From: Romanomermis culicivorax
Taxonomy: Eukaryota; Nematoda; Enoplea; Mermithida; Mermithidae
Reading direction: 5' to 3'
Assembly (NCBI GenBank): GCA_963922205.1
Contig: CAWUHX010000096.1
Coordinates: 496,001 to 560,000, forward strand
Length of the DNA stretch: 64,000 bases
Positions 4,621-63,210 of the stretch are shown piece by piece. A program made the position numbers and the translations under genes. A model generated the notes under the pieces. It did not search any database. It was given only the letters and a program-made list of their open reading frames with translations, and was not told where the DNA came from. Every line of letters begins with the position of its first letter. Positions within the stretch are counted from its first letter, which is position 1.

Positions 4621-5051
4621 ATTATTATTACTCGCTCATAAAGCGGAAGGAGGGAGCCGCATTACACGGGAGCCAAGCCAAGGTAAAGCCCCTGCTCCTT
4701 TGGATATTATTATAGTGAGTTTTGTGTACTTGTGTAAACCTTTAGGAGGCATCTGGGGAGACCCTGAGTGCCCTTCGATTGCAAGAGTTAGAGTTTCCAG
4801 TTACTTATAAGTGACTGAAGGTTGTGTTTATTTCTGCTTAAGGACTGTTGCACTGTGTTTAGTCGATTGCTAATAGGAGGCTCCTTTGAGTGACCTACAG
4901 TAGTCGATTGAGTACAAGCCAATAGGACTTGAGTTATATTGCTGACATCTTCGGACTTCAGCAGAGATATAAACATAACAAATTCAAAATTTAGAAGCAA
5001 AGTGGAAATTGCTTAAAAAAGTAACATTTTAATTTCCCAATCAAAGTACTG

Positions 5052-30039: not shown

Positions 30040-39049
<9,010 letters not shown>

Positions 39050-42000
39050 TTTTATGCAAGTTATAAAAATTTTCTGAAAGTAAATTTAAAATTTCTTTTA
39101 TGAAGTTGAATTTATAAATTTTAATTGAATTTACAAAAAAATTGAAAAACTCTGAAATTATTTGCAGCAAATTGAAATTCGGAATTTAAGATTAGCTTCA
39201 TTTTCCTGAAATTCTGAAATTTTTCAAAAAAAATTGAAAATATAGAATTTTCAAAAAATTTTGGAAACGTAAGACTTCCCAGCAAAAAAACTGCAAAATT
39301 TGTCATTTTCGAAAAAAATTCCAAAATCTAGCACTTCCAAAAAATTTCTAAAATTTGCAAAATGTAGAATTTTTCATAAAGTTTTCAATAAAATTCGGAA
39401 TATTTACGATTTTGAAAAAATTTGTGGAAGTCTAGGATTTTTAATAAATTTCTGAACATATAGAATTTTAAATGAAATATTCGAGATTTCGAATTAAAAA
39501 AAAAATTGATACCTTTGAGATTTTTAAGAAACTTCGAAAATGTAGAATTTTAAGTAAAATTTTGAAAATTAAGGATTTTCCTATTTTTTGAATTTTAGAT
39601 TTTTTCATAAAATTCTGAAAATGTAGAATTTTTAATAAATTTTCGAAAATTTAAAATTTTCAAAATAAAATTTTCAAGTCGAATTTCGATGAAATTCTTT
39701 AAATTCAGAATTTTCCATCAAATTTCGAACATTTAGAATTTTTAATGAAAATTCGGAATTTCAAAAAAAATTCGCAAAATTGACAATTTCCAAAATTTTG
39801 CAAATTTGAGAATTTTCAATAAAAATTTGGAAAATTGTGAATTTTCAATGAAATTTCGAAAATGTAGGGTTTTCAATAAAATTTATTTCGAATTTTCTAT
39901 AAAAACTTTCAAATTTTCAATAGCTAATTGAAGAAAATGTGCACTTGAAACTACACCATCTTGTAGAAAATTAAAATTGTTTAATAAAATTCCGAAAATT
40001 TGAAATTATCCATAAAATTTTGAAAAATTGGAATTCCCAAAAAAATTAAAATTTTCAATATAATTCTGAAAATCAAGAATTTTCAAAAAATTTTGAAACG
40101 TGGCGTGCCAATTAAAGATTTTTTCCAACTTTTGGGCCAATAAAAAATTTTGAAACGTTTAAAAATGACGCGTGAAATTTGCCAAATTTCAACTTTACAA
40201 ATTTGTTTTTTGAAGTTCAAAAAAAAATTGAAATTGTACAATTTTCAATAAAATTTCAAATTTTAGAACTTTCAATTAAATTTTCGATAAAATTTTTAAA
40301 AATTTAGAATTTTTCATAAAATTTCGAGAAATATTAAAAATTTAGACGAATTTTTAAAAAATGATATTTTCGATAGAGTTTTAAAATTTCAAAAATTTAA
40401 AATTTATTCAAAAATTAATTTTTGTATTTTGAAAAATCCAAAATTTTCAATTTTTAAGTCGAATTTAACTTAAAATTTGGAAAAATTTAACTTTACGACT
40501 CATGGCAAAAAATCGAAATGGAATTTGAACGAATTTTGAAATTTTTAATAGAATATCAAGATTTAAATTTTTTGATTCAAAAATCTTTCGACTAAAAATC
40601 GGGCTAAAATTTTGAAAAATTCAAATCTGTGTCAACAAATCGATCAAAAGATCGTAATATATCAAAAAAATCAAATTCATTCAAAATTTTTGAAAATTTG
40701 GAATTTTTTCTGGCAAAAAACATCAAAATTTTTTAAATTTCGCAAAATCCAGAGATAAAAGTTTCAAAATTTTTGTGTCTACGAAAAAATGAAAATGTTA
40801 AAATTTTTGTTCCAAATCATAAAAATTAATACTCGATTATTTGAAAAGTTCAAATTCGAATTTGAAAAAAATTCAATTTTTTCATGATTCGAGCTAAATT
40901 AGCTCAGCTGCTAAATGAAAAAAATTTTTTAAATTTAGAATTTTAGGAAAAAATTTGGAAATTTCATTAAAATATTGCAAGTGTGAACGAATTTCGGTTA
41001 AAAATTAACTTTTTGATAGAATTTCAAAATTTTAAGTCAAAGTTTAAATTTTCGTTCGAAAAATCTTTAGTTTTTATGTTTTGAGCCACATTTCACCAAA
41101 AAATTGAAAAAATGCATCAAATCAACAAAAAAATCAATCAAATTCGAACGAAAATTCAAATTTCGATAAAATTTCATAATTTGAATTTTTTCAATTCAAA
41201 AATTCCAATTTTTCATTTTTCGAGTTAAAATCGAGCTAAAATTGTGAAAAATTCAAATATGTGTCAACAAATCGACTTGAATATCATAAAAATTTCTTAG
41301 AATTCTTATCAAATTTAAGAAAAAATGTTTGAAAATTCAAAATTTTCAATAAAATTCCGAAAATTTTGAATTCTCAAGAAATTTAGAAACTTTAGAATCT
41401 TGAATGAAATTTTATAATTTTCAATAGATATTCGAAAATTTAGAATTTTGAATACTTTTGAAATAAAGGCTTTTTAAAAATTTTTGAAAAAGTAGAATTT
41501 TCAATAAGTTTTTAAAATTTTCAATTGAAATTTTAAAAATACAGAATTTTTAATCGAAAATTCAGAATTTTGAAAATTTTCTTTCAAATTTAGAATTTAG
41601 AATGTCAAAAATTATGGAAAATTCTTCTAAATTCAAAAAGTCTGGCGTCGATGTCCAAAAATTCAATAAAATTATGAAATTTGCTTCTCAAACTTCTAAA
41701 ATTTTTCAAAAAATATGAGAATTCTCTTTAAAATTTTGATTTTTATTGGAGGTGTTTTTCAAAATGTTATCAGGAAAAAAATTTTCGATTTTCGGTCTAA
41801 AATTGTGCAAAATGCTCCAAAATCCTAAAATCCTGTATTTGATGCTCGAAAATACCAAAAAATATGAAAATTCTCTTCAAAGTCCGTATTTGAGATTGTT
41901 ATTTTTAGAGCTGCTGAAGATATTCTTTAAGATTATTAGAAAAAAATGTAAATTTTTGAAGATTTTTTTTGCAAAAATTACGGAAAATGCTCCAAAATCT

Positions 42001-42469
42001 GGAAATTTTGGATTTGATATTCTAAAATTTACTCTCAAAATTTTAAAATTTTTCGAAAAGCATGAAAAATTTCTTCCAAATACGGATTTAAGATCATTAT
42101 TTCAGAAAGTGTTGGGAATATTCTCCAGAATTATTAGAAAAAAATGCTTTTTGTCTAAAATCATCCAAATTCCAAAAATTCTAGATTTGATGCTCTGAAA
42201 TTCTAAAATTTACTCCTTCAAGTTCAATAATTTTTCAAAAAAAAAAGGAAATTGTCTTCAATATTCGGATTCGAGAGATTATTTTTCGAGGTGCTGAAAA
42301 TATTTTCCAAAATTTTTTTAAAAAATCTATAATTTTCAATAGTTTCTGCCAAAAATTGTGGAGAAAGCTCAAAAATTCCGAAATTTAAAATAAAAATAAA
42401 AATTCTCTTTCAAATTCGGATTTAAGGTTTTGGAGGCGTCAAATTTTTTTCAAAATTATTAGACGATGG
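39050..42469. other. Low-complexity sequence between the duplicated copies
   Basis: A mix of AATTTTCAATAAAATTTCGA-type degenerate repeat (39050-41580) and the ~200-bp higher-order repeat (41590 onward). No gene was recognised except an exon 5 fragment at 40095-40190. Confidence 0.6.
40095..40190 (+). pseudogene. EARS2: Fragment of EARS2 exon 5 (3' end)
   Basis: About 95 nt matching exon 5 near residues CGTGCCGATCAAAGAATTTT through ACGCGTGAAATTTGCCAAA, with a stop (TAA) replacing a GAA. It lies about 1.05 kb past the true exon; a shorter trace recurs at the end of the right copy (47505-47545). Confidence 0.85.
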
Positions 42470-42509
42470 AATATAAGTTTTTAGAGATTTTCGGTGGAAA
42501 ATTCTGGAA

Positions 42510-42597
42510 GATTCTTATGTGGAATATTTCAAAAATTGCGGTTATTATCCCCTAGCTCTAATCAATACGGTTTGTTCGACGGCTAAAGGATTTAAGG
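42510..42597 (+). pseudogene. EARS2: Fragment of EARS2 exon 4 (3' end), decoy 2
   Basis: It matches the last ~88 nt of exon 4, and here the donor AAG/GTGAT is kept. The preceding sequence is repeat rather than the rest of exon 4, so on its own it cannot encode the KMSKS region. Confidence 0.85.
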
Positions 42598-45500
42598 TGA
42601 TTTTTTTGGAGGTGTTGAAATTTAATTATTGAAAAAATTCTAAATTTTGAATATTTTTCCCAAAATTACAAAATGCCCCATGGTGTAAAAATTCTGGATT
42701 TGATGCTTGAAAATTCCACAAAATTCATTATAAAATATGAAAATTCTACTCGAAATTCGAATTTGAGGTCATTATTTTTGAGAGGTGCTGAAAATTTTTT
42801 CAAAGATTTTCTTCTAATAATGACTTAAAATGCTCTAAAATCCGAAAATTTTGAAGATTTTTGTCAAAAATTATAGAAATGCTGTAAAATTCAAAAATTC
42901 TAGATATGATGCTTTAAAATTCTAAAATTTACTACTTGAAATTCAATGATTTTTCAAAAAATATGTAAAATCGTATTCGAAATCTGGATTTAGGGTCATT
43001 TTTCGGAAGTGTTGAGAATTTTTTCAAAATAATTAAATAAGAATCTCTTTTCAGAAAAAATTATGCGAAATGCCTTAAAATACAAAAATTCTATGCTCCG
43101 AAATTGTGTAAAATTTTAAAATCTTTCACAAATAGGGAAATTCTCGTAGAAACTCGAATTTAGGATCATTCTTCTTGAAAGTGTTGAGAATATTCTCCAA
43201 ATTTATACTTAGGCCAAAAATTATGGAAAATGCTCTAAAATTCTGAGAATTCTGGATTTTATACTCGAAAATTCTAAAATTTACCATACAAAATGTTAAA
43301 ATTTTAAAAAATATAAAAATTCTCTTTTAAATTCGGATTTAAGGTCATCTTTTTCGAGGTGTTGAGAATATTTTCCAAAACAGTTTCAGAAAAAATTTTT
43401 TTAGATTTCTGGTGAAAAATTATTAATAATGCTTCAAAACTCATAAATTCTATTTTCAAAAAATATGAAAATTCTCTTCAAAATTCAAATTTAAGATTTT
43501 TCCGGGGTATAGTGTTTCATGATTTATAAAGATTTTCTGTTAAAAAAATATGTAAAATGCTCTAAAATCCAAAAATTTTATCCTGAAAATTCTAAATATT
43601 TTTATAAAATATGAAAATTCTCTTTCAAATCCGGATTTTGGAAAATATGTTCCAAAATGGTATTTTAAAAAAATAGATTTTCCGTCATGGAAAATGCTCC
43701 GAAGTCCAAAACGTCTGCCTTTGATGCTTGAAAATTTGCCAGAATTCTCCAAAAAGATAAGGAAATTCTCTTCAAAATTCGAATTCAAGATCATTAGTTT
43801 TGGGGGTGCTGAAAATATTTTGCAGAACAATTAGAAAAAAATCTGTATTTTGGAAGAGTTCCTGTCAGAATTTTATGGAAAACGCTCTGAAATTCTGCAT
43901 TTCACGCTCGAAAATTCTATAAAATTATGAAATTTAGTCGTCAAAATTCCAAAATTTTCCAAAGAATATGAAAATTCTCTTTAAAATCCAGATTTTTAAG
44001 GTCATTATTTTCGGAGATGTCGAAAATTTCAAAAATCAAAAATTTGCGAAGATTTTTGTCAAAAATTATGGAAAATGTTCTAAAATCCAAAAATTATGCA
44101 TTTAACGCTCTAAAATTGCATAAAATTCCCAAACTTACTCCTCAAAATTCTACAATTTTTCAAAAAAAAAATGAAACTTCATCTTTGGAATCGTTAAATT
44201 TTTTTCAAAATTAAAAAAGAAAATTTCGGCGATTTTGCATAAAAAATTATGAAATCCCAAAATTCCGCATTCCATGCCCGAAATTTCTATAAAATTTCAA
44301 AATTTGCTCCACAAAATTGTAAAATTTTCAAAGAAATATGGAAATTCGTTTTAAAATCCGAATTTTTAAGGGTCGTTATTTTTTGAAGTGGTGAAATTTT
44401 TTTCCCAAAATTATTGAAAAAAATTGAAAATTTTGACGATTTTTGTCGAAAATTGTGTGAAAGGGTTTAGCACCTAAAACTCAGTTATCACATTTTAGGC
44501 ACGAAATGAGGAGTAGGATTCTAGGTGCTAGAGATCAATGGAGTTGCGTTTAGCACCTAAAATCCGGTCGCCGAAAAAAGGCACCTAAAATTCGTAGCGG
44601 CTAAATTTCAGTGTCTATTTTTTAGGGTGCTGAAAAAATTCCGTGCGATTTTACTAGCACGAAATCGTCTCCCGCGTTCTCAAAATATTAATCATATTCT
44701 TTATGTACTAAATCGTAAAATTGCGTCTTGACGGGCTTGGAAAGGAAAAAAAATTTTAGCACCTCAAATCCGGTCACCTTGAAAAAAAGGACCTAAAATC
44801 CAGTGTAGGATTCAAGCTGCTAAATTTCGAGGTGTTAAAAAAATTTTCAAAATCTTTATGAACTAAATCGCTAAGTTGTGTTTAGCACCTAAAATCCAGT
44901 CCCCCAAAAAAAGGCACCTAAAATCCGTAGCTGCTCAATTTCAGGGTGTCTATTTTTGAAGGTGCTTGCAAACTATGGAATCAGGTGCTAAATATGTAGA
45001 ATGCTTTTTTGCTGGCGAAACACGAACTAAGATTTTAGGTGCTAAACAAAGACAGTGCTTAATATAGAGGTTGTGATCGGATTTTAGGTGCTAGAAAAAA
45101 TACTTGAATTTTGAGAAAAAAAATTTCATGAAATTTTTGGAGGTGCAGATTATTTCATTATGTGGTGAAATGCTATAATTCAAAGTCGGAAATTAGGCGC
45201 TGATCATATTTGAGTCTGATTTTTAGATGCTAAATGAGAAAGCTTCGTGGTGAACATTCAAAAATTCGTTTCTGACCGGATTTCGGGTGCTCAAGGCAAA
45301 TTGGGATTTAGATGCTCAAGTATTAAAGCCCGATCGGGTTTAAAAAATTACGTTGTGTTCGGATTTCGGGTGCTATTGATGAATTAGAATTGGAATTTTT
45401 AAATGCTCAAATGGTGTCTTTCGGATTTCGGGTGCTGAAGAGCAATTTGGATTTTAGGTGCCAGAGCCTGGAAAAGATTTTAAATTTCCAGAGCAAGTTT

Positions 45501-45802
45501 TAAAAATTTTCTAAGGATCGGATTCCGGGTGCTGTCGACGAGTTTGAATTTTAGGTGCTAAAGACTAACAAGGATTTTGAATGCTTGCTAACGACGAACT
45601 GGGATTTTAGGTGGTGAACACAAACGAAGATTTTCAATCCTCACTTTTTAACTTAAACTCGGATTTCGGGTGATAGAAGAACTATGATTTGAGGTGCTAG
45701 AGACATACAAGCATTTCAAAACGCAACAGAAAACATTTGAAAATTGTGTCAAGGTCGGACTTTAGGTGCTATTCTAGGTGCTAATTATACGCTTTTTTCT
45801 AG

Positions 45803-46474
45803 GACAAAGAAAAAGAAAAATTGTATTCGATGGACGAATTGATTTTCAAATTTGACGTTTCTTTGATATCTAGACAATCGACCATTTTCGAACCGGAATG
45901 GCTAAATTTCTATAATAAAATATGTTTAGAAAGATCGGACGACAAATTTTTGATCCAACAATTAAAATTTATGTTGAAAAATCGTTACGAAAAAGAAAAA
46001 AATGAAATTTTTTTCCAAGATATTTTAAACGACGATGAATATTTGGAAAAATGTTTACGATACGCAAAAAATCGTTTAACGACATTGGGCGATATTTTCG
46101 AAAAAGATTTAGCTTCCTTATGGTCGTTACCGGATTTAAATTTTACGAATTTTCGAGAAGAAGCCGGCCAAAATTTGGCCGCTTGGTTGGAAATTTTGCA
46201 AATTTTACAAGATTTTATAGAAAAAGGCCAAATTCAACCATTTGATAAAGAAAATATCGGCCGAAAATTGCAATTGCTGGCCCAAAATCACGGTTGGCAA
46301 CACGCCAAATTGCTGGGAATGCTGCGAGCGGCCTTGTGTAACGTGAAACGGGGCGTGCCGATCAAAGAATTTTTCCAACTTTTGGGCCAAGAAAAAGTTT
46401 TGAAACGTTTAAAAATGACGCGTGAAATTTGCCAAAAATTTTTAAACGACGATGAAAAATGTGTGCAAATTTAA
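45803..46474 (+). CDS. EARS2: Second intact copy of EARS2 terminal exon
   Basis: 672 nt after an acceptor TTTTTTCTAG, coding for the same 223 residues plus stop as 38378-39049. The only coding difference I see is in the penultimate residue (GAA to CAA, Glu to Gln). It encodes the anticodon-binding half of the synthetase, so it cannot work alone, but it could serve as an alternative last exon if transcription passes the first copy. Near identity of the exon against several percent difference in the flanks suggests selection, conversion, or two haplotypes placed in tandem. Confidence 0.8.
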   Translation, partial: DKEKEKLYSMDELIFKFDVSLISRQSTIFEPEWLNFYNKICLERSDDKFLIQQLKFMLKNRYEKEKNEIFFQDILNDDEYLEKCLRYAKNRLTTLGDIFEKDLASLWSLPDLNFTNFREEAGQNLAAWLEILQILQDFIEKGQIQPFDKENIGRKLQLLAQNHGWQHAKLLGMLRAALCNVKRGVPIKEFFQLLGQEKVLKRLKMTREICQKFLNDDEKCVQI

Positions 46475-47718
46475 TTTTACATAAGTTATAAAAGTTTTCT
46501 GAAAGTAAATTTAAAATTTCTTTTATGAAGTTGAATTTATAAATTTTAATTGAATTTAAAAAAAAATCGAAAAATTCTGAAATTATTTGCAGCAAATTGA
46601 AATTCGGAATTTAAGATTAGCTTCATTTTCCTGAAATTCTGAAATTTTTCAAAAAAAAAATTGAAAATGTAGAATTTCCAAAAAATTTTGGAAACGTAAG
46701 ACTTCCCAGCAAAAAAACTGCAAAATTTGTCATTTTCGAAAAAAATTCGAAAATCTAGCATTTCCAAAAAATTTTTTAAATTTGGAAAATGTAGAATTTT
46801 TTATAAAGTTTTCAATAAAATTCGGAATATTTTCGATTTTGAAAAAATTTGTGGAAGTCTAGGATTTTTAATAAAATTCTGAACATATAGAATTTTAAAT
46901 AAAATATTCGAGATTTCAAATTCAAAAAAAAAATGATACCTCTGAGATTTTTAAGAAACTTCGAAAATGTAGAATTTTAAGTAAAATTTTGGAAAACTTT
47001 GCATTTTCAATAAAATTTTGAAAATTAATGATTTTCCTATTTTTTGAATTTTAGATTTTTTTATAAAATTCTGAAAATGTAGAATTTTTAATAAATTTTC
47101 GAAAATTTTTATTTCGAATTTCGATGAAATTTTTTAAATTCACAATTTTCAATCAATTTTTAATGAAATTTCAAAAAAAATTCGGAAAATTGACAATTTC
47201 CAAAATTTTGCAAATTTGAGAATTTTCAATAAAAATTTGGAAAATTGTGAATTTTCAATGAAATTTCGAAAATGTAGGATTTTCAATAAAATTTATTTTG
47301 AATTTTGTATAATAATTTTCAAATTTTCAGTAGCTAATTGAAGAAAATGTGCATTCAAAACTACATCACCTTGTATGAAATTAAATTTTTAATAAAATTC
47401 CGAAAATTTGAAATTATCCATAAAATTTCGAAAAATTGGAATTCCCAAAAAAATTAAAATTTTCATATAATTCTGAAAATCAAGAATTTTCAAAAAATTT
47501 TGAAACGGGATGTGCCAATTGAAATTTTTTCAAACTTTCGCGCCAATGACGGAAATTCTAGAGAATCGGATTTTTTTGGAAAATTTGAAAATTCCAACTT
47601 GTGACAATAACAATTTTCGAAAATTGCGAGAATTTTTTCTTTTATTTTTAAACTAGCGAATTATAATTAGGAAAAAAAGAACAAAATTTGAACGCAAAAA
47701 ATACAAAAGAAAAAAATT

Positions 47719-50700
47719 TCAATCCAAAATCACTTCTTCGATAAATTTTTTTTCTCCATTTTTCGTCTCGAAATTGGAAATTTTCGATTGTTTTTCGCCA
47801 TTTTCCAGTTCTAAAGTTGGAAAATTTGGCCCAAATTTGCATTTTTTGCATCGGTCGACGCGGCAAAGTGGAATTTTCAGACGTTTCAAATGGCGCCGCG
47901 CCCAATGCTCCAGAACGTCGGCGTAAAAATCGAATTTCAACTGGCAAGGATTGCAACAATAAGTCTTTTTTTTGCTCTCCAACTTTTTGGGCGAAGATAC
48001 GGTTTTTTTTTGCCTGACGATTCCGGCTTACTGTAGCCGCCGTCGAATTTTGGCCTACTGTAGCCGTCGTCGAATTTTGGCCTACTGTAGCCGCCGACTT
48101 TTGACTTACTGTAGCCGTCAAGTTTCGGCTTACTGTAGCCGCCGGGTTTTTTTGCTCGTGAACGTTTTTCAAATGCCATTGCAGAGCGGCGAAGGAGTAC
48201 AAACGTTGGCGGCACAAGTCGCAAGTGTACAAAATTTCGGCGGCGTTCAATTGAAATTTGTGCGCGTTCGACAAATGTTGTAAAATGTTGAAACCGAAAA
48301 TCTGGAAAATTTATTTTTCTGCAGAATTTAGAATTTTAAATTTATTCGAATTTTGAAATTTTTATGAGAAAATTCAAAACTTTTCTAATTTTCGAAAGAC
48401 AAATTTCGGAAAAATAAAAATCTTACAAAAATTTTGGGATTTTCCAGAAAAATTGACATTTTTCAGAATTTCAAATTTGATGAAATTTTCAAGTTTTCAC
48501 AAGAAAATTGAAATTTTTTTCGAAATTTCTGAAAATTAACAAAAAATTGTAAATTTGACAGAATTTTGAAAAAATTCTATGAATTTTCATGTAAAATTTT
48601 CATTGGAATCGTCAAATTTTTACGAGAAAAATTTTCAAATTTGGACATTAAAATTTCAATATTTCTAGAAAAATTAGAAACTTTTGAAAATTTCAATTTT
48701 TTCAAATTTCCTATTTTATCATTTCAGCACATTTTCAAGTATTTGGAAATTTCGAAATTCACAACTTTTTTTCAATTTTACAATCTTTTAAGAAATTGCA
48801 CAAATTTTCCTACAAAATTGACATTTTCACTAGAGAATTTAAATCTTAAAGTTTTTACGAGCAAATTCAAAATTTTTCCACGAAATTTGACACTTTTTGA
48901 GAATTTTGGCACAATTTCTGCGAATTTCAATTAATAAAAGAAACTTTTTCAAAAATTAATCACTAAAAAATTGCAAAATTTTAAAAATCGAATTCGAATT
49001 TCACGAAAATCCGAAGCAGAAAAGACTGAAAAAAATGTGAAAATTCCAAAATTCGATTTCGGATTTCACGAAATTTCGAGGAGAAAAAGTTCAAATTTTC
49101 AAGCAAAAAAAGCTGAAAAATTTCGAATTTACTAAATTTCCCAAAAAATTCAAATTTTCAAGTTGAAAAAATGTCTAATTCTTTGAAAGTCAATTTCGAA
49201 TTTCGAGAAAAAAATTCCAAATTTTTGAAGGAAAAAAGATGAAAATTTCAAAAATTGAACTCAAATTTGACGAAATTTCAAGCGGAAAAAATTGAAAATT
49301 TTAAAATAGATTAATTCTTGGAGAAAAAAATCAAAAAAATCTGAAAATTTTGAAATCAATGCTGAATTTCAAGAAATTAGCAAAAAAATTCAAATTCCCA
49401 AGCAAGATAAGATTTTAAAAATCGAATTCGAATTTTGCACGATAGATAACAAAATAAATTTTAAATTTGACGGAATTCCTTAAAAAAATTTCAAATTTTC
49501 GAATCGAATTCAAATTTCACGAAATTTCGTAAAGAAATTCGAATTTTCAAACAAAAACGCATTTTTCAACAGAAAGAAGCTGGAAAATTTGCAAATTTTT
49601 AATTGAGAAATTTTGTGAGAAATTCAAATTTTCACAAATTCAATCAAAAAAGAATTTTTTTTCAAATGATCAATCGGAGAAGTTACAAAATTTCCAAAAA
49701 TATTCAAATTTTCAAGTAAAAAAGGTGAATAATGAGAAAATTTCGAAATCGAGTAGGAATTTCATAAAATTTTCAACAAAATCCAAATTTCGAAACGAAA
49801 AATGTAAAAATTTCCAACTTGAACTTGAATTTCACGAAATTTCCAAGAGAAAAAACCAAATATTCAGCCGAAAAAAGTCAACAAATTTGGAAAATTTCCA
49901 AAATAATTTCGAATTTTCAAGCAAAAAAAGCTGCAAAATGTCGAAAATTTCAAAAAATAAATTGCAAATTTCACCAAATTTTCGAGAATTTTTGAAGGAA
50001 AAAATGTGAAAATTTCAAAAATTGAGCAAATTTCGAGCAGAATTGGCCAACGTGTTCGAGTATTTTAAAAATCGAATTCGAATTTCACGAAATTTATGGG
50101 AAGAAAATTCAAGTTTCCAACAAAAAAGCAAAAAAAAATTGAATAAATTTTAGAAAAATCCAAATAAAACTGAAAAATGTCGAAAATTGAAGAAATTTCA
50201 CGGAATTTGCAGAAAAAATTAAATCTTGAAGCAGAAAAAGCAGAAAAATGAGAGAATTTTCGCAAAAAAGCTAAAAAATGTGGAAAATTTCAAATTTCAC
50301 CAAATTTTCAGAATTCAACGAAATTTCGAGCAAAAAATTCGAATTTTGCAACAAACCTTGCGACAATGCTTGCACTTGCCGCCGTCCTGCTTGCGGCCGG
50401 CCTTGGCCAACATGTCCGAGTCGACCAGGCCGTGGTCCATGAGCAAATGGCGCTGGAGGCCCTCGTTGGAGAAAAAACGCCTCGAACAGCGGCTGCAGGA
50501 CAAAAAGGGCGGATTTTGCAACAAGGAATTTAAATTTCGATCCAACAACAAATTGTGATTCGATTTCAAATGAACGACGTAATTTTCTTTGTTAATCAAA
50601 TTTGTGTCGCATAATTCGCATTGAAACGACGTCGATTGGCTTAAAATTCGAATTTTTTATGAAATTTCGAATTTTTCATGAAATTTCGAAAAATTATTGA

Positions 50701-53700
50701 AATTTAAGAAAACGTTGAAATCTACAAATTTTTCGAAATTCAAATTTTTAGCAGCTAGATTTTTCCTAGTCAAAATTTTCCATAAATAGAAATTATTTGG
50801 AAAATGAATGAAACATTGAAAATTCTAATTTTGGTCAAAATTTCAATTTTTTCATTGAAAAATTACAATTTTTCACTACTTGGCTAAAAACCAAACTGAG
50901 ATTTTTTAACAATTTCGATCAAATTTTTTTCCAAAAATTCCATAAAATTTAAAATTTTCTATAAAATTATGGAAAATAATGCAAATTTTCGAGAAGAAAA
51001 TTTTAAAAAACTCCGTTTCGAAACTTAAAAATTGCTTAGAAAGTTTCCCAAATCTAGAATTTAAAACAAAATTTGAAATTCTCAAGCAGCAAATTTTCAA
51101 AATTTTTTAAACTTAGGAGCTAAATTTTCGAAAATTTTGGAGAAATTGCGAAAATTTACAGTTTTCAATAAAATTGAATTTTTTTCATTTTTAGTACCTA
51201 AATTTCCAATTTTCTCTAATTTTTACCTGCTGAATTTCAACAAACTTCGAAAATGATTCGCTATAAAATTGACTATATTTTGAAAACTTTCCACAGAATT
51301 TAAAAATTCGTTTTCCAAATTTCCAGCAGCTAAATTTGAGATAATTACAAAAATTTAGAATTTTCGACAAAATTAAATTTCCAGCATGTAAATTTTCAAA
51401 AATTCAGAATTTTCGATAAAATTTACCTTTTTTTCATTTTTAGCAGCTCAATTTTCAATTTCTTCCAATTTTTAGCAGCTAAATTTGCAACAAATTTCGA
51501 AAATGTAGAATTTTCAATTAAATTGGATAAATTTAGAATTTAAGTTGAGGAATTTGGTTTTTTAAATTTCCAGCAGCTAAATTCTCAACAATGCAAAATT
51601 TAGAATTTTCTAACGAAAACAATGACAATGAAAAAAAATTTCACCAAAACTTAAATTTTCGAATCACATAATGAAATTTCGTCCTACAAATTTAGAATTT
51701 ACCCATTAGAAATATCAAAAATTGTAAAATTTTCCAAAAACGCTACAAAATTTTAAAATTTCGCTCGAAAATTCAAATTTTATTTCAACAACAACTTGAG
51801 GGGAATTTTAGAATTTCGTCGCAAAATTCCAATTTTTGAATCGCATTTCTTCCGAAAAATTCAGAATTTTTCAAGTATAAAACTATCAAAAATTCCCCAA
51901 TTTCTCAAAATCGAGGAGAAAATTTCAAATAAAAAAAAAAAAATTGGAAAATACTAAAAATTCCAATTTTCGACAGCATTTCTAAAAAAATGTCAAAAAA
52001 AAACAAATTTTTTACAAAATTAGGCTTAAATTTTAAAATGTCGACGCGAAATTCGAATTTTAGAATCGCAAATTTTCAAAAATTCTGAATTTTCCACCAA
52101 AACAATCAAAAAAGGTCAAAATTTTAGACCAAAAAATTCTCCAAACCCAATTTGCCGTCCGCCTAACGTCGCCGCGCCGCCGACCAAAAACGCCGGCGGC
52201 GGAGCCTTGGTCGTCGTCGGAAATGGCGAAACGACGTTGGCCGCCGCCGTCGACATCGTTTGCCGAACTTTATCGCCGTACAAACGTAAAATTTCCGCGG
52301 CGGAAATCGCTGGCGACAAAATATGCGTCGTCGACGGCGCCGCCGGACATAAAACGAAAGCCGACGGACGTACGGCATCTAGAGAAAAAAATTAAATAAA
52401 AATAAAAAAAAGGAAAAAAATAACATGAAAAAAAATCACATGGAAATAAAAAAAATTAAATAAAAATAAAAAAAGTAAAAATAAAAAACATAAATGAAAA
52501 AAATAAAAAAATAAGACGAAAATAAATAAAATAAAAATGAAAAAAATGAAACTAAAAAAAATAAATAAAAATATGAAAGAAGTAGAAATAAAAAAAAATA
52601 AATGAAAAATAAAAAAAATGGAAAAAATTTAAAAAATTCAACTAAAATAAAAAAAATAAATAAAAATTAAAAAAATGAAATAAAAAAAATAAAAAGCTTA
52701 CTAGCGACGATCTTATCGCCGACGACGACCGAATCGACGATGTCGTGGACGCTTTGGCGAACTTTCATTGGCGGATAGGGTTTAGGAGCGACGGAATTCT
52801 AGAAAAAAATCAAATTTTTTTTGGAAAATTTTTCTTTCAATTTTGCAAATTTAATTCAGAATTTAAATTTAAAAAAAATTCCAATTGATTTCAGAAATAA
52901 ATTAAAATTTTGAACTTTTTTGGAAAAAATTTCTTCGAATTCTAATTCAAAACTTTATAATTATATTGAAATTTATAGAATTTTCGTTGAAGAATTCATT
53001 TTTTCGAGATCAATTTTTCGAATTTTTGTACTCTAAATCGACTTTGCAGAATTTTAAACTCAAATTTGAGCTAAAATTAAGGAAAAACTAAAATTCATAA
53101 ACCAAAAATGTCGAATTTTTGATGATTTACAAAAAAGATAATCAAATTATCATTTGAATTTTTTCAAAATTAAATTTGAATTATTCTAGCAAAAAAGCTA
53201 AATTTTCATGGAAAATTCCAATTTTGTAACAGAAAATTCTATGTTTGACCAAAAATTTCAAAATTTCCAATTTTTGGTGATTTTAACCACAATTTTTTTT
53301 TATTTTTAACCACACAAAAAAAACATTTTTTTGAAACTTTTGTTGAAATGTTGAAAATTTAATTGAGAATTTAACTTTTAAAAATTTCTTTCAATTCTAA
53401 TTCGAAACTCTGAGAATTTTATCAAAATCGAGTCAAAATTCCTAAAATTTTCAACGAAATTCAAATAATTAAAAATTGAAATTCATAAGAAAAAATTTGA
53501 ATTTTTTTTCAAAAAATTCAACTCTTTGATATTAATTTTATCAATTTCGAAACTTCTTAAAATTCGGATTTTCAATTTTTTACTTTAAATTTAAGCTAAA
53601 ATTACAAAAAATTTGAATTTACTAATCTTCCGTGATTTTTAAACAGAAAATTGAATTTTTTAAAAATTAAATCCGAATTATTTTACCATAAAATATAAAT

Positions 53701-56660
53701 TTTTCACTTTGAATTTTGCAACATAAAATTCTAATTTTGATCAGAAATTCGAAAATTTCAAATTTTTGGTGATTTTTAATCACGAAACTATTAATTTTTT
53801 GAAATTTAAAATTTGATATCAATTTTTCTACCAAAAAACGCGAAATTTTTAAACAAAAATTATAAAATTCTATTTAAATTTTTCCGAAGAAAATTCTGCT
53901 TGATCAAAAATTTAAAAATTTACAATTATTGGTGATTTCGAATTCGAACTATTCCATCAAAAAATCTCAAATTTTCAGAGAAAATTCTAATTTTGTAGCA
54001 GAAAAATTCTATTTATGACAAAAATTTAAAAATTTGGTGATTTTCATTCAGAAAAACTTCTTTCTTGAAAATTTTTTGAGATTAAATTTGAATTATTCTA
54101 CCAATAAATTCCAAATTTTCAAAGAAAATTCGAAAACTAGTAGAAAATTCCACATTGAAAAATTCCAAATTTTTGGTGATTTTAACCACTTTTTTTTAAA
54201 ATTTTTGTTCAAATTTGACTCAAAATTTAAATTCAACAATTTTCAACAAAAATTTAATCCAAAAAATTAATTAAACTTTCAGAAAAACATCAAAATATTG
54301 AATTTTCTTGAAAATATTTTTCTTTGAATTATAATTCGAAACTTTTAGAATTCTATTAATTTGGACGCGAAATTGCTAAAATTTTGAATATTTTCTCGAA
54401 ATTTCCAAAGAAATTCGAATTTTGCTCAAAAAATTATTTCTTTTCTACACTAAAAATTCGAATTTGCAGATTTTAACCTCAAATTTCAGCTATAACAAAT
54501 CAAAATTTGGGTCAAAAAATTCGAATTTTTCCGTTTTTCAAATAAAATTTCAAATTTCTAGTGATTTTCAATCGGGAAACTTTTAGTTTTTCGGAAAAAG
54601 TTTTTAAAATTAAAAAATTGGCGAAATTTTCTGAGAAAATTCTAATTTTTGTTCAAAAATTCTAAAATTTCGAATTTTTAGTGATTTTTAATCGGGAAAT
54701 GATATTATATTCGAATGTTTTTTTAAAATTAAATTCCAATTATAATCTACCAAAAAATGCCAAATTTTCATACAAAATTTAACTTTAGCGATAACAAATT
54801 TTATGTTCGATCAAAAACTTAAAAATTAATTTGTTTTATTGAAAAATTTTCAAAAATTTAAATTTGAATAATTCAACCAAAAAAATTAAAATTTCCATAG
54901 AAAATTCGCATTTTGAAGTAGAAAATTCTACTTAATTTCGAAATTTCAATTTTTTAAACAACTTTTAATCTACGAAAAAATGAAATTTGGAATAATTTTC
55001 CTGAATTTCAAAATTTTTTTCCTTTGAAATTCCCAAAATTTTGAATTTCTTGAAAATTCGAATTTCCAAGTTCGTTTATTAATCCGAAAAAATTAATGTT
55101 TCAATTATTTCATCAAATTTTGAATCGGAAATTAAAATTTTGAAATTTCGTTCATAAAATTGGAGAATAGTCGTCTAAAAAAATTCGAAATTTGGCCGGA
55201 AAGTCCACTTTTTGAAATTAATTTTAACAAGTTTCTGTGTTTTTCTTCAAATTTGAGCTAAAAATGTCAAATTTTTGACAGTTGTCAGCTATCAGTACTC
55301 TGCGTTGATACCACTGCTNNNNNNNNNNNNNNNNNNNNNNNNNNNNNNNNNNNNNNNNNNNNNNNNNNNNNNNNNNNNNNNNNNNNNNNNNNNNNNNNNN
55401 NNNNNNNNNNNNNNNNNNACACACTCTATCAGATTAAGCAGTGGTATCAACGCAGAGTACTGGAAACTTTTAGTTTTTCGGAAAAAGTTTTTAAAATTAA
55501 AAAATTGGCGAAATTTTCTGAGAAAATTCTAATTTTTGTTCAAAAATTCTAAAATTTCGAATTTTTAGTGATTTTTAATCGGGAAATGATATTATATTCG
55601 AATGTTTTTTTAAAATTAAATTCCAATTATAATCTACCAAAAAATGCCAAATTTTCATACAAAATTTAACTTTAGCGATAACAAATTTTATGTTCGATCA
55701 AAAACTTAAAAATTAATTTGTTTTATTGAAAAATTTTCAAAAATTTAAATTTGAATAATTCAACCAAAAAAATTAAAATTTCCATAGAAAATTCGCATTT
55801 TGAAGTAGAAAATTCTACTTAATTTCGAAATTTCAATTTTTTAAACAACTTTTAATCTACGAAAAAATGAAATTTGGAATAATTTTCCTGAATTTCAAAA
55901 TTTTTTTCCTTTGAAATTCCCAAAATTTTGAATTTCTTGAAAATTCGAATTTCCAAGTTCGTTTATTAATCCGAAAAAATTAATGTTTCAATTATTTCAT
56001 CAAATTTTGAATCGGAAATTAAAATTTTGAAATTTCGTTCATAAAATTGGAGAATAGTCGTCTAAAAAAATTCGAAATTTGGCCGGAAAGTCCACTTTTT
56101 GAAATTAATTTTAACAAGTTTCTGTGTTTTTCTTCAAATTTGAGCTAAAAATGTCAAATTTTTGACAGTTGTCAGCTATCCGCGAAATCTATATTTAAGA
56201 TTATTGATCAAAAAATATATTAAAATTTTGAAGTAGGAGATTCAAATATTATTTAAAAATTCAAATTTCAAATTTTATTTGCTTCAAATTTTTATCCGAT
56301 TTTGATAGTTTCCGAAATTTTAATTGTGAAATTTTAAAAAAAAATCAATCACTTATATAAATTATAATTAAATTTTAAAATTTTAATTTTAATTAAATTT
56401 TAAAATTTGAATTTTAATTAAAATAAATTTTTCAAATTTGAAAAATTGTCATACTTGTGTTTCATTGATAGGTTTTAATTTAAAATTTTCCAATAAATAA
56501 TCTCGTTCTTTTCTGAACGACGAAGCCATCTTATTCGACGCTTCTTTCCTCGAAGTGGCCAACGGCAGCGGCGGCGGTTTCCCCGACGGCGCCGGTAAAG
56601 GCATGGGAGGAGTCCATAAGTGACGATTTATAATATCTTGGTCTTGAAACGTACAAAATC
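47719..56660 (-). CDS. C2H2 zinc-finger protein, multi-exon (copy A; frame broken in last exon)
   Basis: Five exons join in phase on the minus strand: 56455-56660, 52702-52798, 52147-52378, 50357-50639 and 47719-48301. The first exon found starts mid-codon, so a more upstream start exon is missing. The N-terminal part is Pro/Ala/Ser/Thr-rich (PMPLPAPSGKPPPLPLATSR; TTTKAPPPAFLVGG) and probably disordered. Exon four has two C2H2 fingers, CELC-x12-H-x4-H and CSRC-x12-H-x4-H. A third starts with CKHC and is completed in the last exon as HLSNAH, with atypical spacing. The last exon has CDLC-x12-H-x4-H, an Ala-Thr-Val-rich repeat linker, CNPC-x12-H-x4-H and CKKC. It is probably nuclear and nucleic-acid binding; target unknown. 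A T run of nine at 48003-48011 (eight in copy B) shifts the frame after the linker, so as sequenced this copy stops early in the wrong frame at 47648. This may be a homopolymer error. Confidence 0.7.
47998..48150. repeat. Coding 27-bp repeat built on TACTGTAG (copy A, 5 motifs)
   Basis: The unit is GGCCTACTGTAGCCGTCGTC plus GAATTTT on the plus strand, with five TACTGTAG octamers. Being 27 bp long it adds nine residues per unit (ATVGQNSTT in the zinc-finger frame). Copy B has six. Confidence 0.85.
48302..50356. other. Intron of the zinc-finger gene, low complexity
   Basis: Degenerate AAATTTCGAATTTCACGAAA-type sequence. No other feature was recognised. Confidence 0.6.
52385..52695. repeat. A-rich simple repeat (AAATAAAA-type)
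   Basis: About 300 bp of AAATAAAAAA-type sequence filling the intron between two zinc-finger gene exons (52378 and 52702). Confidence 0.9.
52799..54574. other. Intron of the zinc-finger gene, low complexity
   Basis: Degenerate sequence with recurring 'AATTTTTGGTGATTTTTAATC' and 'CCAAAAAATGCCAAATTTTCA' words roughly every 150-250 bp. No gene was seen. Confidence 0.55.
54575..55293. repeat. 719-bp sequence, left copy, abutting the gap
   Basis: It starts GGAAACTTTTAGTTTTTCGG and ends GACAGTTGTCAGCTATC. The same 719 bp recur at 55462-56180 with no difference I could find. It is probably one genomic sequence represented twice by an assembly join. Confidence 0.9.
55294..55318 (-). other. Adapter (SMART-type oligo), reverse orientation
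   Basis: AGTACTCTGCGTTGATACCA followed by CTGCT is the reverse complement of the common SMART cDNA amplification oligo (AAGCAGTGGTATCAACGCAG...). It is not genomic. Confidence 0.95.
55319..55418. other. Assembly gap, 100 N
   Basis: Exactly 100 N, the conventional placeholder for a gap of unknown size. Confidence 0.99.
55419..55461 (+). other. Barcode-like bases plus SMART-type adapter, forward orientation
   Basis: AAGCAGTGGTATCAACGCAG and AGTAC at 55436-55460 are the SMART oligo in forward orientation. The 17 bases before it (ACACACTCTATCAGATT) look like a sample barcode left attached. They are not genomic. Confidence 0.93.
55462..56180. repeat. 719-bp sequence, right copy, abutting the adapter
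   Basis: The same sequence as 54575-55293. After its end, unique intron sequence continues (CGCGAAATCTATATTTAAG), so the true intron probably runs from 54574 through one copy into 56181. Confidence 0.9.
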
Positions 56661-58162
56661 CTGCAAAATTTTTTGAAAATTTAAAATATTTTTAAAATTA
56701 AATTTTTTGAATTTGAAAATAAATTTTTAAATTATTCTAAAAATTTCCTTCAAAATTCTAATAGCAAAAAATGACGATAAATTCTAAAAATTTCAACGCT
56801 AAAAGTTTGAAAATTCAATTTTTTCGAAATTTAAAATTTTTTAGAATTGAGTTTTCAAAATTTTGAATTTTATTCTAGGAAACTTTCGTTGAAATTCTAG
56901 TTATTGAAGAAAAAAAAGGAAAATTCTCTCAAAAAATCTGCCAAATTTAAGATTTGCAAATTCTCAAAATTCAAAATTTTGTGCTGGATTTTGGAATTTA
57001 GAGTTTTCCGTAAAATTTTCAAAATTGGGAATTTCTAATAAAATTTTGAAAATTAAAAATTTTCAATGAAATTTCCAAAATTAAAAATTTTCAATTAAAT
57101 TGGTAATGAAGAGCTTACAAAATTCCATTGAAAATTCAAGATTTTCGATAAAATTTTCAAAATTTAGAATTTTGAATTGAATTTAAGGATTTAGGGTTTT
57201 CTATGAAATTTTTCAACAATATTTTGTAAATTTGGAATTTTTCATGAATTTCAAAATTTAAAATTTCAATAAAATTTTTAAAATTTAGAATTTTCTTCAT
57301 TTTCAATAGCTAAATTTTCGATCCTTTTTTTATTTTCAACAGCTATATTTCGAACTTTTTTTTGAATCTAAAAATTTCGATAAAGTTTTCGAAATTTCAG
57401 CAGCTAAATTTCAGAAAACTTTGATATGAAACTTCGCAAATTTCCAAAAACTTCCAATGTTTTGTTATTGTAATTTTCGAAAATTTTAATTTTTTTTTCA
57501 ATTAGAATTGAAAAAATTTTTCTTCGATAATTTTCCAAAATTTCATTTTAATTTTTGAACAAAATAAAAATTTTCAAAAGCTTAATTCAACTTGGAATTT
57601 ACAAAATCCTGAAAAGAAATTTAAAAATTAAAAAGTTTTTCAAATTAAATTTTTTTTTAATTTTAAAATTTTAAAAATTATTCTAAAAATTTGTTTTGAA
57701 ATTCTAATAATTTGATCAAAAAATGACGACAAATTCTAGAATTTTGATGCCAGATGTTCAAGAATTCGACGTTTATTATTAAATTCGAAAATTTTCAAAT
57801 TAAATTTTTAAAATTTTGAATTTTATTTTAAAAATTTTGTCGAAATTCTAAGTATTACAGCAAAAAATAACGATGAATGCTAGAATTTTGATGGAAAAAC
57901 CCTAAGAATTACTATTTTCGAAAATTTTAAAAATTTTTCAAATTGAATTTTTAAATTTTGTATTTTATTCTTAAACTTTTCTATTGAAATTCTAACAATT
58001 TTAGCAAAAAATGGCGATAAATTCTAGAATTTCAAGTATTTGACATTTTTTTCAAAATTTAAAGATTTGTCAAATTAGATTTCTAAACTTTGAAAATTTT
58101 TGAAATTTGAAAATTTTGAATTTTCGCTTAAAAAATTTTCATGGAAAATTCGACAATTTTAA
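56661..58162. other. Sequence upstream of the first recognised zinc-finger exon
   Basis: Low-complexity sequence with 'AAAATGACGATAAATTCTAGAA' words in loose tandem. The missing start exon of the gene was not found here. Confidence 0.45.
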
Positions 58163-61100
58163 CCAAAAAATGACGGAAATTCTAGAGAATCGGATTTTTT
58201 TGGAAAATTTGAAATTTGGAAATTTAGTATTTTCAGAAAATTTCGATAATTTAGAGCGTTCGACTTTCAATAAAATTTTTTGAATTTACACTTTGCAAAA
58301 ATTTTGAAAATTTAGAATTTTCAATAAAATTTCGATAATTCAGAACTTTCATGAGGAATTTTTAATTGAGAAGGTTTAATAAAATTTTTAAAATAAAAAA
58401 ATTGGAAAATGCACAATTTTCAATAACTTTTTAAAATTTTTAAGTTTAGAATTTTCGAAAAAATTTAAAAATTTTAAAAAATTGCGATAATTTTTTCCTT
58501 TTATTTTCAAACTAGCGAATTATAATTAGGAAAAAAGAACAAAATTTGAACGCAAAAAATACAAAAGAAAAAAATTTCAATCCAAAATCACTTCTTCGAT
58601 AAATTTTTTTTCTCCATTTTTCGTCTCAAAATTGGAAATTTTCGATTGTTTTTCGCCATTTTCCAGTTCTAAAGTTGGAAAATCCCGCCCAAATTTGCAT
58701 TTTTTGCATCGGTCGACGCGGCAAAGTGGAATTTTCAGACGTTTCAAATGGCGCCGCGCCCAATGCTCCAGAACGTCGGCGTAAAAATCGAATTTCAACT
58801 GGCAAGGATTGCAACAATAAGTCTTTTTTTTGCTCTCCAACTTTTTGGGCGAAGATACAGTTTTTTTTGCCTGACGATTCCGGCTTACTGTAGCCGTCGT
58901 CGAATTTTGGCCTACTGTAGCCGTCGTCGAATTTTGGCCTACTGTAGCCGTCGTCGAATTTTGGCCTACTGTAGCCGCCGGCTTTTGACTTACTGTAGCC
59001 GTCAAGTTTCGGCTTACTGTAGCCGCCGGGTTTTTTTGCTCGTGAACATTTTTCAAATGCCATTGCAGAGCGGCGAAGGAGTACAAACGTTGGCGGCACA
59101 AGTCGCAAGTGTACAAAATTTCGGCGGCGTTCAATTGAAATTTGTGCGCGTTCGACAAATGTTGTAAAATGTTGAAACCGAAAATCTGGAAAATTTATTT
59201 TTCTGCAGAATTTAGAATTTTAAATTTATTCGAATTTTGAAATTTTTATGAGAAAATTCAAAACTTTTCTAATTTTCGAAAGACAAATTTCGGAAAAATA
59301 AAAATCTTACAAAAATTTTGGGATTTTCCAGAAAAATTGACATTTTTCAGAATTTCAAATTTGATGAAATTTTCAAGTTTTCACAAGAAAATTGAAAATT
59401 TTTCGAAATTTCTAAAAATTAACAAAAAATTGTAAATTTGACAGAATTTTGAGAAAATTCTATGAATTTTCATGTAAAATTTTCATTGGAATCGTCAAAT
59501 TTTTACGAGAAAATTTTTAAAATTTGGACATTAAAATTTCAATATTTACAGCGAAATTAGAAACTTTTGAAAATTTCAATTTTTCAAATTTCCTGTTTTA
59601 TCTTTCCAGCACATTTTGAAATATTTGGAAATTTCGAAATTTACAACATTTTGTCAATTTTACAATCTTTTAGGAAATTGCACAAATTTTCCTACAAAAT
59701 TGACATTTTCACTAGAGAATTTAAATCTTAAAGTTTTTACGAGCAAATTCAAAATTTTTCCACGAAAATTCACAGTTTTTGAGAATTTTGGCACAATTTC
59801 TGCGAATTTCAATTAATAAAAGAAATTTTTTCAAAAATTAATAACTGAAAAATTGCAAAATTTTAAAAATCGAATTCGAATTTCACGAAAATCCGAAGCA
59901 GAAAAGACTGAAAAAAATGTGAAAATTCCAAAATTCGATTTCGGATTTCACGAAATTTCGAGGAGAAAAAGTTCAAATTTTCAAGCAAAAAAGCTGAAAA
60001 ATTTCGAATTTACTAAATTTCCCAAAAAATTCAAATTTTCAAGTTGAAAAAATGTCTAATTCTTTGAAAGTCAATTTCGAATTTCGAGAAAAAAATTCCA
60101 AATTTTTGAAGGAAAAAAAGGTGAAAATTTCAAAAATTGAACTCAAATTTGATGAAATTTCAAGCGGAAAAAAATGAAATTTTCAAAATAAATTAATTTT
60201 TGGAGAAAAAAATCAAAAAAATCTGAAAATGTTGAAATCAATGCTGAATTTCAAGAAATTTGCGAAAAAATTCAAATTCCCAAGCAAGATAAGATTTTAA
60301 GAATCGAATTCAAATTTTGCACGTTAGATAACAAAATAAATTTTAAATTTGACGGAATTCCTTAAAAAAATTTCAAATTTTCGAATCGAATTCAAATTTC
60401 ACGAAATTTCGTAAAGAAATTCGAATTTTCAAGCAAGAACGCATTTTTCAACAGAAAGAAGCTGGAAAATTTACGAATTTTTAATTGAGAAATTTTGTGA
60501 GAAATTCGAATTTTTGCAAATTCAATCAAAAAAGAATATTTTTTCAAATGATCAATTGGAGAAGTTACAAAATTTCGAAAAATATTCAAATTTTCAAGTA
60601 AAAAAGCTGAATAATGAGAAAATTTCGAAATCGAGCAGGAATTTCATAAAATTTTCAACAAAATTCAAATTTCGAAACGAAAAATGTAAAAATTTCCAGC
60701 TTGAACTTGAATTTCACGAAATTTCCAAGAGAAAAACCAAATATTCAGCCGAAAAAAGCTAACGAATTTGGGAAATTTTTAAAATAATTTTGAATTTTCA
60801 AGCAAAAAAAGCTGAAAAATGTCGAAAATTCCATAAAATAAATTGCAAATTTCACCAAATTTTCAAGAATTTTTGAAAGGAAAAAATGTGAAAATTCCAA
60901 AAATTGAGCAAATTTCGAGCAGAATTGGCCAACATGTCCGAGTATTTTAAAAATCGAATTCGAATTTCACGAAATTTATGGGAAGAAAATTCAAGTTTCC
61001 AACAAAAAAGCAGAAAAAATTGAATAAATTTTAGAAAAATCTAAATAAAACTGAAAAATGTCGAAAATTGAAGAAATTTCACGGAATTTGCAAAAAAATT

Positions 61101-63210
61101 TAAATCTTGAAGCAGAAAAAGCAGAAAAATGAGACAATTTTCGCAAAAATTCAAATTTTGAACCAAAAAAGCTAAAAAATGTGGAAAATTTCACCAAATT
61201 TTCGGAATTTTTGAAGCAAAAAAATTTGAAATTTCAAGCAAAAAAATTCGAATTTTCCAACAAACCTTGCGACAATGCTTGCACTTGCCGCCGTCCTGCT
61301 TGCGGCCGGCCTTGGCCAACATGTCCGAGTCGACCAGGCCGTGGTCCATGAGCAAATGGCGCTGGAGGCCCTCGTTGGAGAAAAAACGCCTCGAACAGCG
61401 GCTGCAGGACAAAAAGGGCGGATTTTGCAACAAGGAATTTAAATTTCGATCCAACAACAAATTGTGATTCGATTTCAAATGAACGACGTAATTTTCTTTG
61501 TTAATCAAATTTGTGTCGCATAATTCGCATTGAAACGACGTCGATTGGCTTAAAATTCGAATTTTTTATGAGGAAAAATTTCAAAATTTTGAAATTTTCT
61601 AGTAAATTTGGAATTTTTTCAAATTTTGAAAATTTAGAATCTTATACAAAATGTGGAAAAATTATTGAAATTTTCGGGAGTTAAATTTAAGAAAAAGTTG
61701 AACAGGAAAACATTTTCTACAAATTTTTTTTTCATTTTCAACAGCTAGATTTTTGAAAAAATTTTATAGTCAAAATTTTCCATAAAATTTTGGAGAATAG
61801 AAATTATTTGGAAAATGAGTGAAATATTGGAAATTCAAACAATTGATATTTTCGATTGAATTTCGGGATATCTTTTGTTAGTCAGATTTTGCCCAAATTC
61901 TGCAAAAATTCAAAACTTGTATCAACAAATCGACAAAAAAATCAAATTTCAACGAATTTTGATGAAAATTCTAATTTTAGTCAAAATTTCAATTTTTTCA
62001 TTGAAAAAATACAATTTTTCACTACTTGGCTAAAAACCAAACTAAGATTTTTAAAGAATTTCAATCAAATTTTTTTTTCAAAAATTTCATAAAATTTAAA
62101 ATTTTCTATAAAATTATGGAAAATAATGCAAATTTTCGAAAAGCAAATTTTAAAAAACTCGGTTTCGAAACTTAACAATTGCTTAGAAAGTTTCCCAAAT
62201 TAAAACAAAATTTGAAATTCTCAAGCAGCAAATTTTCAAAATTTTTTAAACTTAGGAGCTAAATTTTCGAAAATTTTGGAAAAGTTGCGAAAATTTACAG
62301 TTTTCAATAAAATTGAATTTTTTTCATTTTTAGTACCTAAATTTCCAATTTTCTCCAATTTTTACGTGACGAATTTCAACAAATTTCGAAAATGATTCGC
62401 TATAAAATTGCCTATATTTTGAAAACTTTCCACAGAATTTAAAAATTCGTTTTCAAAATTTCCAGCAGCTAAATTTTCAGATAATTGCAAAAATTTAGAA
62501 TTTTCGACAAAATTAAATTTCCAGCATGTAAATTTTCAAAAATTCAGAATTTTCTATAAAATTTACCTTTTTTTCATTTTTAGCAGCTCAATTTTCAATT
62601 TTTTTTTAAATTTTGACTAGCTAAATTTGCAAAAAATTCCGAAAATGTAGAATTTTCTAACGAAAACAATGACAATGAAAAAAAATTTCAGCAAAACTCA
62701 GATATTGAAATTTCGTCCTACAAATTTACAATTTACCCATTAGAAATATCAAAAATTGTGAAATTTTGCAAAAACGCTACAAAATTTTAAAATTTCGCTT
62801 GAAAATTCGGATTTTATTTCACTCAAAATTTGAATATTTTTTTAAATTGAAAATTTACAACAAAATTCTAAAAAAATATTGAAAATTTCAACAATTTTTT
62901 CTCGAGTTTTCAGCAGTAAAATTTTCTAGAAAAACGAATTGTTCTTAAAAATTAGGCTGGAATTTTAGAATTTCGTCGCGAAATTCGAATTTTTGAATCG
63001 CATTGGTTCTGAAAAATTGCGAAATTTCTCAACATCGAGAAGAAATTTCAATTTTTTTCAAATATGTGATAATTTTAAAAATTTTCGACAGCAAACTTTT
63101 AAAAAAAATTCCAACAAAAACCAACTCTTTACAAAACTAGGCTGAAATTTTAGAATTTTGCCGCGAATATCGAACTTTTAAATTGTATTTGATCCAGAAA
63201 ATTCACAATT
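58163..63210 (-). repeat. Segmental duplication 2, right copy
   Basis: It begins TGACGGAAATTCTAGAGAATCG, as at 47546, and stays collinear to about 63210, with about 240 bp extra near 58220-58470. A further piece of the zinc-finger exon edge (CAACGACGTCGATTGGCTTA) recurs at about 63398-63420. Confidence 0.86.
58577..61548 (-). CDS. C2H2 zinc-finger exons, copy B (frame intact)
   Basis: Two exons, 61266-61548 and 58577-59185, equal to the last two exons of copy A. They carry the CELC and CSRC fingers, CKHC plus HLSNAH, the CDLC finger, an Ala-Thr-Val linker with six TACTGTAG-derived units, the CNPC finger and a C-terminal EKKFIEEVILD. Here the linker is followed in frame by ESKKKTYCCNPC, because the T run at 58861-58868 has eight bases. 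No equivalent of the Pro-rich N-terminal exons was found before the window ends, so this is either the 3' part of a second gene continuing beyond 64000 or a partial duplicate. It lies upstream of copy A's known exons on the same strand. Confidence 0.68.

Follow-up and report, generated by a model that had tools for sequence, protein, structure and literature searches.

The 719-bp sequence printed before and again after a 100-N gap in the window (the 64,000 nucleotides of Romanomermis culicivorax DNA analyzed here, C96:496001-560000 in a genome of 359,112,060 bases and 595 sequences) is very likely not a duplication but an assembly artifact, in which two overlapping contigs were placed one after the other, separated by untrimmed adapters and a gap of filler N. 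On the evidence of the sequence, the 719-bp stretch is most likely present once at this locus and printed twice; the left and right contigs very probably do adjoin at these ends in the genome, while the gap and the second copy would be false. This is a known kind of assembly artifact with an unusually clear cause. Its value is in quality control for one reference genome, and it is no biological discovery.

We compared the two sides of the gap directly within the window and found 719/719 positions identical (0 differences), so that the sequence before the gap equals the sequence after it, end to end. The identity stops precisely at both adapters, and in the assembly nothing but adapter, tag, and N lies between the two copies. 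The initial annotation had correctly described the 719-bp identity, with the right coordinates, and the 100-N gap bracketed by opposite, inward-facing adapters, but its description lacked the 17-nt tag. The left adapter is the 26-mer minus its first A, and the gap is the sole N run within the window. In total, the excess sequence amounts to 887 bp, of which the second copy accounts for 719 and the adapters, tag, and gap for 168. The tag, which we take to be PacBio bc1019 plus a T, directly precedes the right-hand 26-mer, which is presumably the primer of a PacBio low-input library kit. The tag occurred in none of the literature matches listed for tag or adapter, and the matches listed for "bc1019" or "barcoded overhang adapter" likewise contained none for bc1019. 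In PMC12613986, the 26-mer is called adapter contamination and was removed from HiFi reads. The stretch from 52400 to 58576 has no open reading frame of at least 110 aa (stop to stop), and the artifact therefore sits in sequence without sign of a long coding exon.

Features at and around the gap, in window positions
Feature	Positions	Strand	Remark
Left flank	53775..54574	+	Continuous with the single 719-bp homolog in diverged copy L049
Copy 1 of the 719-bp sequence, left contig end	54575..55293	+	719/719 with 55462-56180; 21.6% G+C
Untrimmed PCR adapter, 25 nt, left contig end	55294..55318	-	Reverse complement of AGCAGTGGTATCAACGCAGAGTACT
Scaffolding gap, 100 N	55319..55418	.	RagTag default for "unknown" size (PMC9753292)
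17-nt sample-barcode-like tag ACACACTCTATCAGATT	55419..55435	+	Same tag + adapter 43-mer recurs genome-wide
Untrimmed PCR adapter AAGCAGTGGTATCAACGCAGAGTACT, 26 nt, right contig start	55436..55461	+	26-mer match
Copy 2 of the 719-bp sequence, right contig start	55462..56180	+	Read as the genomic place of copy 1
Right flank	56181..56927	+	Directly after the single 719-bp homolog in diverged copy L049

Chance occurrence of the adapter is not to be expected: its 20-mer has two matches in the window at up to 3 mismatches and none in 100 dinucleotide shuffles (mean, 0.00). Genome-wide, there are 565 exact copies of the 20-mer (257 forward, 308 reverse), 828 of the 25-mer (400 forward, 428 reverse), and 142 of the 43-mer formed by tag and adapter (60 forward, 82 reverse), and the reversed control of each gave 0. 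The initial annotation had proposed a search for adapter at contig ends, and the pattern it anticipated is what the 25-mers display, with all 50 exact copies in our sample lying at most 25 nt from a gap or scaffold end. With these counts, the 26-mer appears to stand at contig ends across the genome, directed into the contig. Our sample consisted of 40 fetched adapter regions (L009-L048) plus the window; eight further regions (L001-L008) were excluded from the gap and overlap counts as shorter cuts of places in L009-L015. The first 20 regions were taken in sequence from the first 100 adapter 20-mer places, on C1-C10, leaving out scaffold starts and three places on C6, C9, and C10, and comprise 18 gaps and 2 scaffold ends; the second 20 were hand-picked from 25-mer places on C13-C28 and are neither a random nor a complete set. 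Should all adapters lie at contig ends, as they do in this sample, simple arithmetic gives 828 adapter-bearing ends of 2622 (∼32%), with 595 scaffolds and 716 gaps contributing two ends each. On the 48 gap-facing adapters sampled, what remains outside the 25-mer is A alone (17 adapters), nothing (7), or the tag plus A, either whole (12), minus one base (11), or minus two (1). The 17-nt tag is the sole tag type among them, and its trimming is uneven.

All 39 sampled gaps, that of the window included, measure 100 N, the fixed size of a RagTag scaffold gap. RagTag uses 100 bp by default and also replaces inferred gaps that are too small by 100 bp (PMC9753292). Guiglielmoni et al. 2024 (PMC10879605) published a v2 assembly of R. 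culicivorax with which the present genome agrees, to the digits given, in total length (359.1 Mb) and scaffold number (595). That assembly comes from an amplified HiFi library with RagTag scaffolding and has 716 gaps and 70.6 kb of N, slightly below 100 per gap. The initial annotation had read a PCR-amplified, low-input library from the adapters, in keeping with the amplified ultra-low-input HiFi reads reported for v2 (PMC10879605). According to the same source, NextDenovo contigs from HiFi reads were purged and then ordered with RagTag on a hifiasm assembly of HiFi and Nanopore reads (the published Nanopore reads amount to 5.7 Gb). This ordering also speaks for the two contigs being neighbors, though not fully independently, because the second assembly shares its HiFi reads with the contigs. 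The main text of PMC10879605 uses "adapter" once, for Nanopore reads, with no mention there of adapter in contigs. Among the literature matches listed in a search for adapter in the R. culicivorax assembly, this paper alone names the species, and reports may exist.

These observations suggest how the artifact may have arisen. Genomic DNA would have been fragmented, given a PCR adapter, amplified, and HiFi sequenced (library type as in PMC10879605), with adapters and, in part, the sample barcode left on the HiFi reads. Because adapters were not removed from the reads, two contigs would end in adapter, at the ends of their terminal library molecules. These molecules would have 719 bp in common, yet the contigs stayed unmerged, presumably because the adapter tips blocked merging. 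The reference-guided scaffolder would then have set the two contigs side by side on the second assembly and inserted its fixed 100-N gap, leaving one genomic stretch of 719 bp twice in print and a surplus of 887 bp. While the present analysis itself shows the anatomy of the gap, the distribution of adapter over the genome, and the layout with one copy in a diverged homolog, the assembler and scaffolder in this account are those of PMC10879605, and we infer that they apply to the window.

A diverged homolog on the same scaffold, about 20 kb downstream (L049, C96:570900-573400), provides a view of the region free of both N and adapter. Among 46 listed matches to the 719-bp sequence (counts that are lower bounds), the near-full-length ones are the pair itself and C96:571709-572425 within this homolog (97%), while the other 43 reach at most 327 bp and at most 85%. 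The left contig aligns with it through the whole of copy 1 (53775-55293 versus C96:570900-572425; 96.5%, 1531 columns), and the right contig aligns with it from 55464 onward (95.5%, 1478 columns). The right flank matches C96:572426-573182 at 94%, directly adjoining the homolog of the 719-bp sequence. A layout with one copy aligns to C96:570900-573182 as a single piece (2290 columns, 95.6%), whereas the sequence as printed falls into two main pieces; short pieces of low identity (70 to 75%) accompany both layouts. The homolog, which is a place some 20 kb away and not the locus itself, thus holds one 719-bp copy, strong though indirect evidence for a single copy at the gap. The initial annotation had called the structure a false join. 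Because both flanks adjoin a single 719-bp copy in L049, which is continuous through both junctions, that is the wrong name, and the two contigs very probably stand in their correct order. Its underlying explanation, two overlapping contigs with untrimmed amplification adapters, agrees with the anatomy of the gap, the genome-wide adapter pattern, and the one-copy layout of the homolog.

At each of the 39 gaps, we removed the adapters and compared how the left contig ends with how the right one begins. A terminal overlap was present at 6/39, the window included, a figure that applies to adapter-bearing gaps, from which the whole sample was drawn. The overlaps measure 19, 74, 719 (window), 1306, 1868, and 2291 bp, so two of the six are short. 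For L009-L028 and the window, the own-pair comparison reached 4.5 kb into the left contig; for L029-L048, it reached 2.9 to 3.0 kb. As a control, the first 200 nt of each right contig were compared with the last 3000 nt of noncorresponding left contigs; 2 of 1482 such mismatched pairs had a terminal overlap, both at ∼96%, while under the same filter the own pairs again gave 6/39. In a stricter run (at least 97%), overlap was seen in 3 of 18 own pairs and in none of 306 mismatched ones. The remaining 33 of the 39 sampled adapter gaps lacked a terminal overlap within ∼4.5 kb or 2.9 to 3.0 kb of the left contig. Adapter by itself therefore does not imply overlap, and unmerged overlap leaves most of the sampled gaps unexplained at the depth searched. 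At one of the sampled gaps (L022, G000:C5:635900-645750, gap at 4833-4932), about 18 nt by the left end recur inverted near the right start, as judged by eye, which resembles the end of a chimeric or palindromic molecule; the exact end-to-end test for inverted sequence did not flag it. We also considered PCR dropout at low G+C as a general cause of contig breaks. The 719-bp site is itself low in G+C (21.6%), but across 18 adapter gaps the 500 bp by the ends average 35.3% versus 35.5% further out (Wilcoxon p = 0.52), which does not support low G+C as a general cause.

The perfect identity of the two 719-bp copies extends across 24 homopolymers of 5 to 7 nt. The two contig ends were assembled separately but may draw on common reads. 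Two overlaps elsewhere are less clean: in L009, 14 indels and 1 substitution make up 15 differences over 1878 columns, and L011 has 4 in 2295 columns, all indels. As contig ends from the same locus that differ almost entirely by indels, these two pairs indicate roughly how much consensus error to expect near the ends of contigs in this assembly. The initial annotation had cautioned that amplification bears on homopolymer frameshifts throughout the window; the caution is partly supported: the 719-bp overlap gives no example of it, whereas the contig ends of L009 and L011 do differ, mostly by indels.

Three other accounts of the repeated sequence have to be weighed. A real and very recent 719-bp tandem duplication, with the contigs breaking between its copies, would fit a region that has other repeated blocks (47608-50686 and 58466-61597, 94.6% identical). 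It would, however, have to combine 100% identity with boundaries that fall exactly at two library adapters, the diverged homolog has a single copy, and end overlaps of other lengths recur at five further sampled gaps. In the assembly, moreover, the copies are not joined by genomic DNA, and we regard such a duplication as very unlikely. Equally improbable is a haplotypic duplication that survived purging, with two alleles overlapping here, even though up to 10 individuals were pooled for sequencing and the authors' k-mer spectrum points to some remaining artifactual duplications (PMC10879605). Against this account stand the 0 differences in 719 positions, which do not fit a heterotype (allelic) false duplication, and an overlap that reaches the extreme tip of each contig. 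A wrong join, in which contigs from different places with a common end repeat were mistakenly put together, draws some plausibility from the 289 Mb of transposable elements in this repeat-rich genome (PMC10879605) and from the two mismatched contig-end pairs that match terminally, but it is extremely improbable, given that the near-identical matches listed for the 719-bp sequence are the pair and the 97% copy on the same scaffold only and that both flanks are adjacent in that copy.

The preferred reading, overlapping contigs that stayed unmerged, has close parallels. Like the homotype false duplications of Ko et al. 2022 (PMC9516828), the structure lies on one scaffold, repeats a sequence across a gap, and has no allelic difference between the copies, and gaps between duplicated pairs on one scaffold are described there as a hallmark of false duplication. 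The homotype kind is ascribed in that work to sequence errors in reads, whereas here a likely cause is visible in the adapters at both ends. The false duplications of Kelley and Salzberg 2010 (PMC2864568) are comparable but concern divergent chromosomes of diploids. A further parallel is PMC11536531, in which adapters were concentrated at the beginnings and ends of contigs, in opposite orientation, and trimming let some contigs merge; those were Illumina adapters in microbial assemblies, in contrast to a PacBio library amplification adapter in an animal genome that was subsequently scaffolded.

R. culicivorax v2 quite probably contains false tandem duplications bounded by adapter as a systematic feature, with ∼15% of adapter-bounded gaps (6/39 sampled, two of the overlaps being <100 bp) duplicating as much as 2.3 kb. 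If so, some apparent tandem copies by gaps in this reference are not real. Near-identical sequence flanking a 100-N gap should count as one copy until reads show otherwise, and the 26-mer adapter and the 17-nt tag should be screened for before tandem duplications are counted or primers designed. A cheap test that needs no reads is to look for adapter at the gap ends, compare end with end, and compare both ends with a diverged copy.

The larger duplications in the window are not unmerged overlaps. The initial annotation had extended its warning to every duplication in the window, but the two large ones, at 90.8% and 94.6%, are too diverged for unmerged overlaps, an argument that holds for the whole range of 91 to 95% seen among them. 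The tandem 6-kb duplication at 34171-40141 and 41669-47547 (90.8% overall) sits in gap-free sequence and was rejected as an artifact of this kind. Its identity follows a steep gradient, from ∼73% at 34.2 to 34.8 kb through 100% at 37.8 to 39.0 kb to 92% at 39.9 kb, a pattern that may reflect gene conversion or, alternatively, template switching during library amplification. An exon-like open reading frame in the identical core matches Anticodon_2, a domain of glutamyl-tRNA synthetases, and differs between the copies at 1 of 669 nt. The repeated blocks at 47608-51515 and 58466-62657 (94.6% and 93.7%) lie ∼11 kb apart as printed. We rejected the same artifact for 47608-50686 and 58466-61597 (94.6%), since the right contig begins with sequence that matches where the left contig ends, and does not match the place expected for an allelic contig. 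The stretch ∼20 kb downstream at C96:570900-573182 (L049) in turn resembles 53775-56927. Within the second repeated stretch, the open reading frame at 61194-61565 reaches the Pfam cutoff for a C2H2 zinc finger, and that at 58580-59194 falls below it. The nematode SL1 spliced leader, used as a possible marker of the host, gave 0 matches, a result of little weight because this species may lack SL1. Elsewhere in the window, a 412-aa stop-to-stop open reading frame at 8012-9250 matches the Sre chemoreceptor family (Pfam, E = 4.8e-7), a match that fits a nematode and is notable for a mermithid host.
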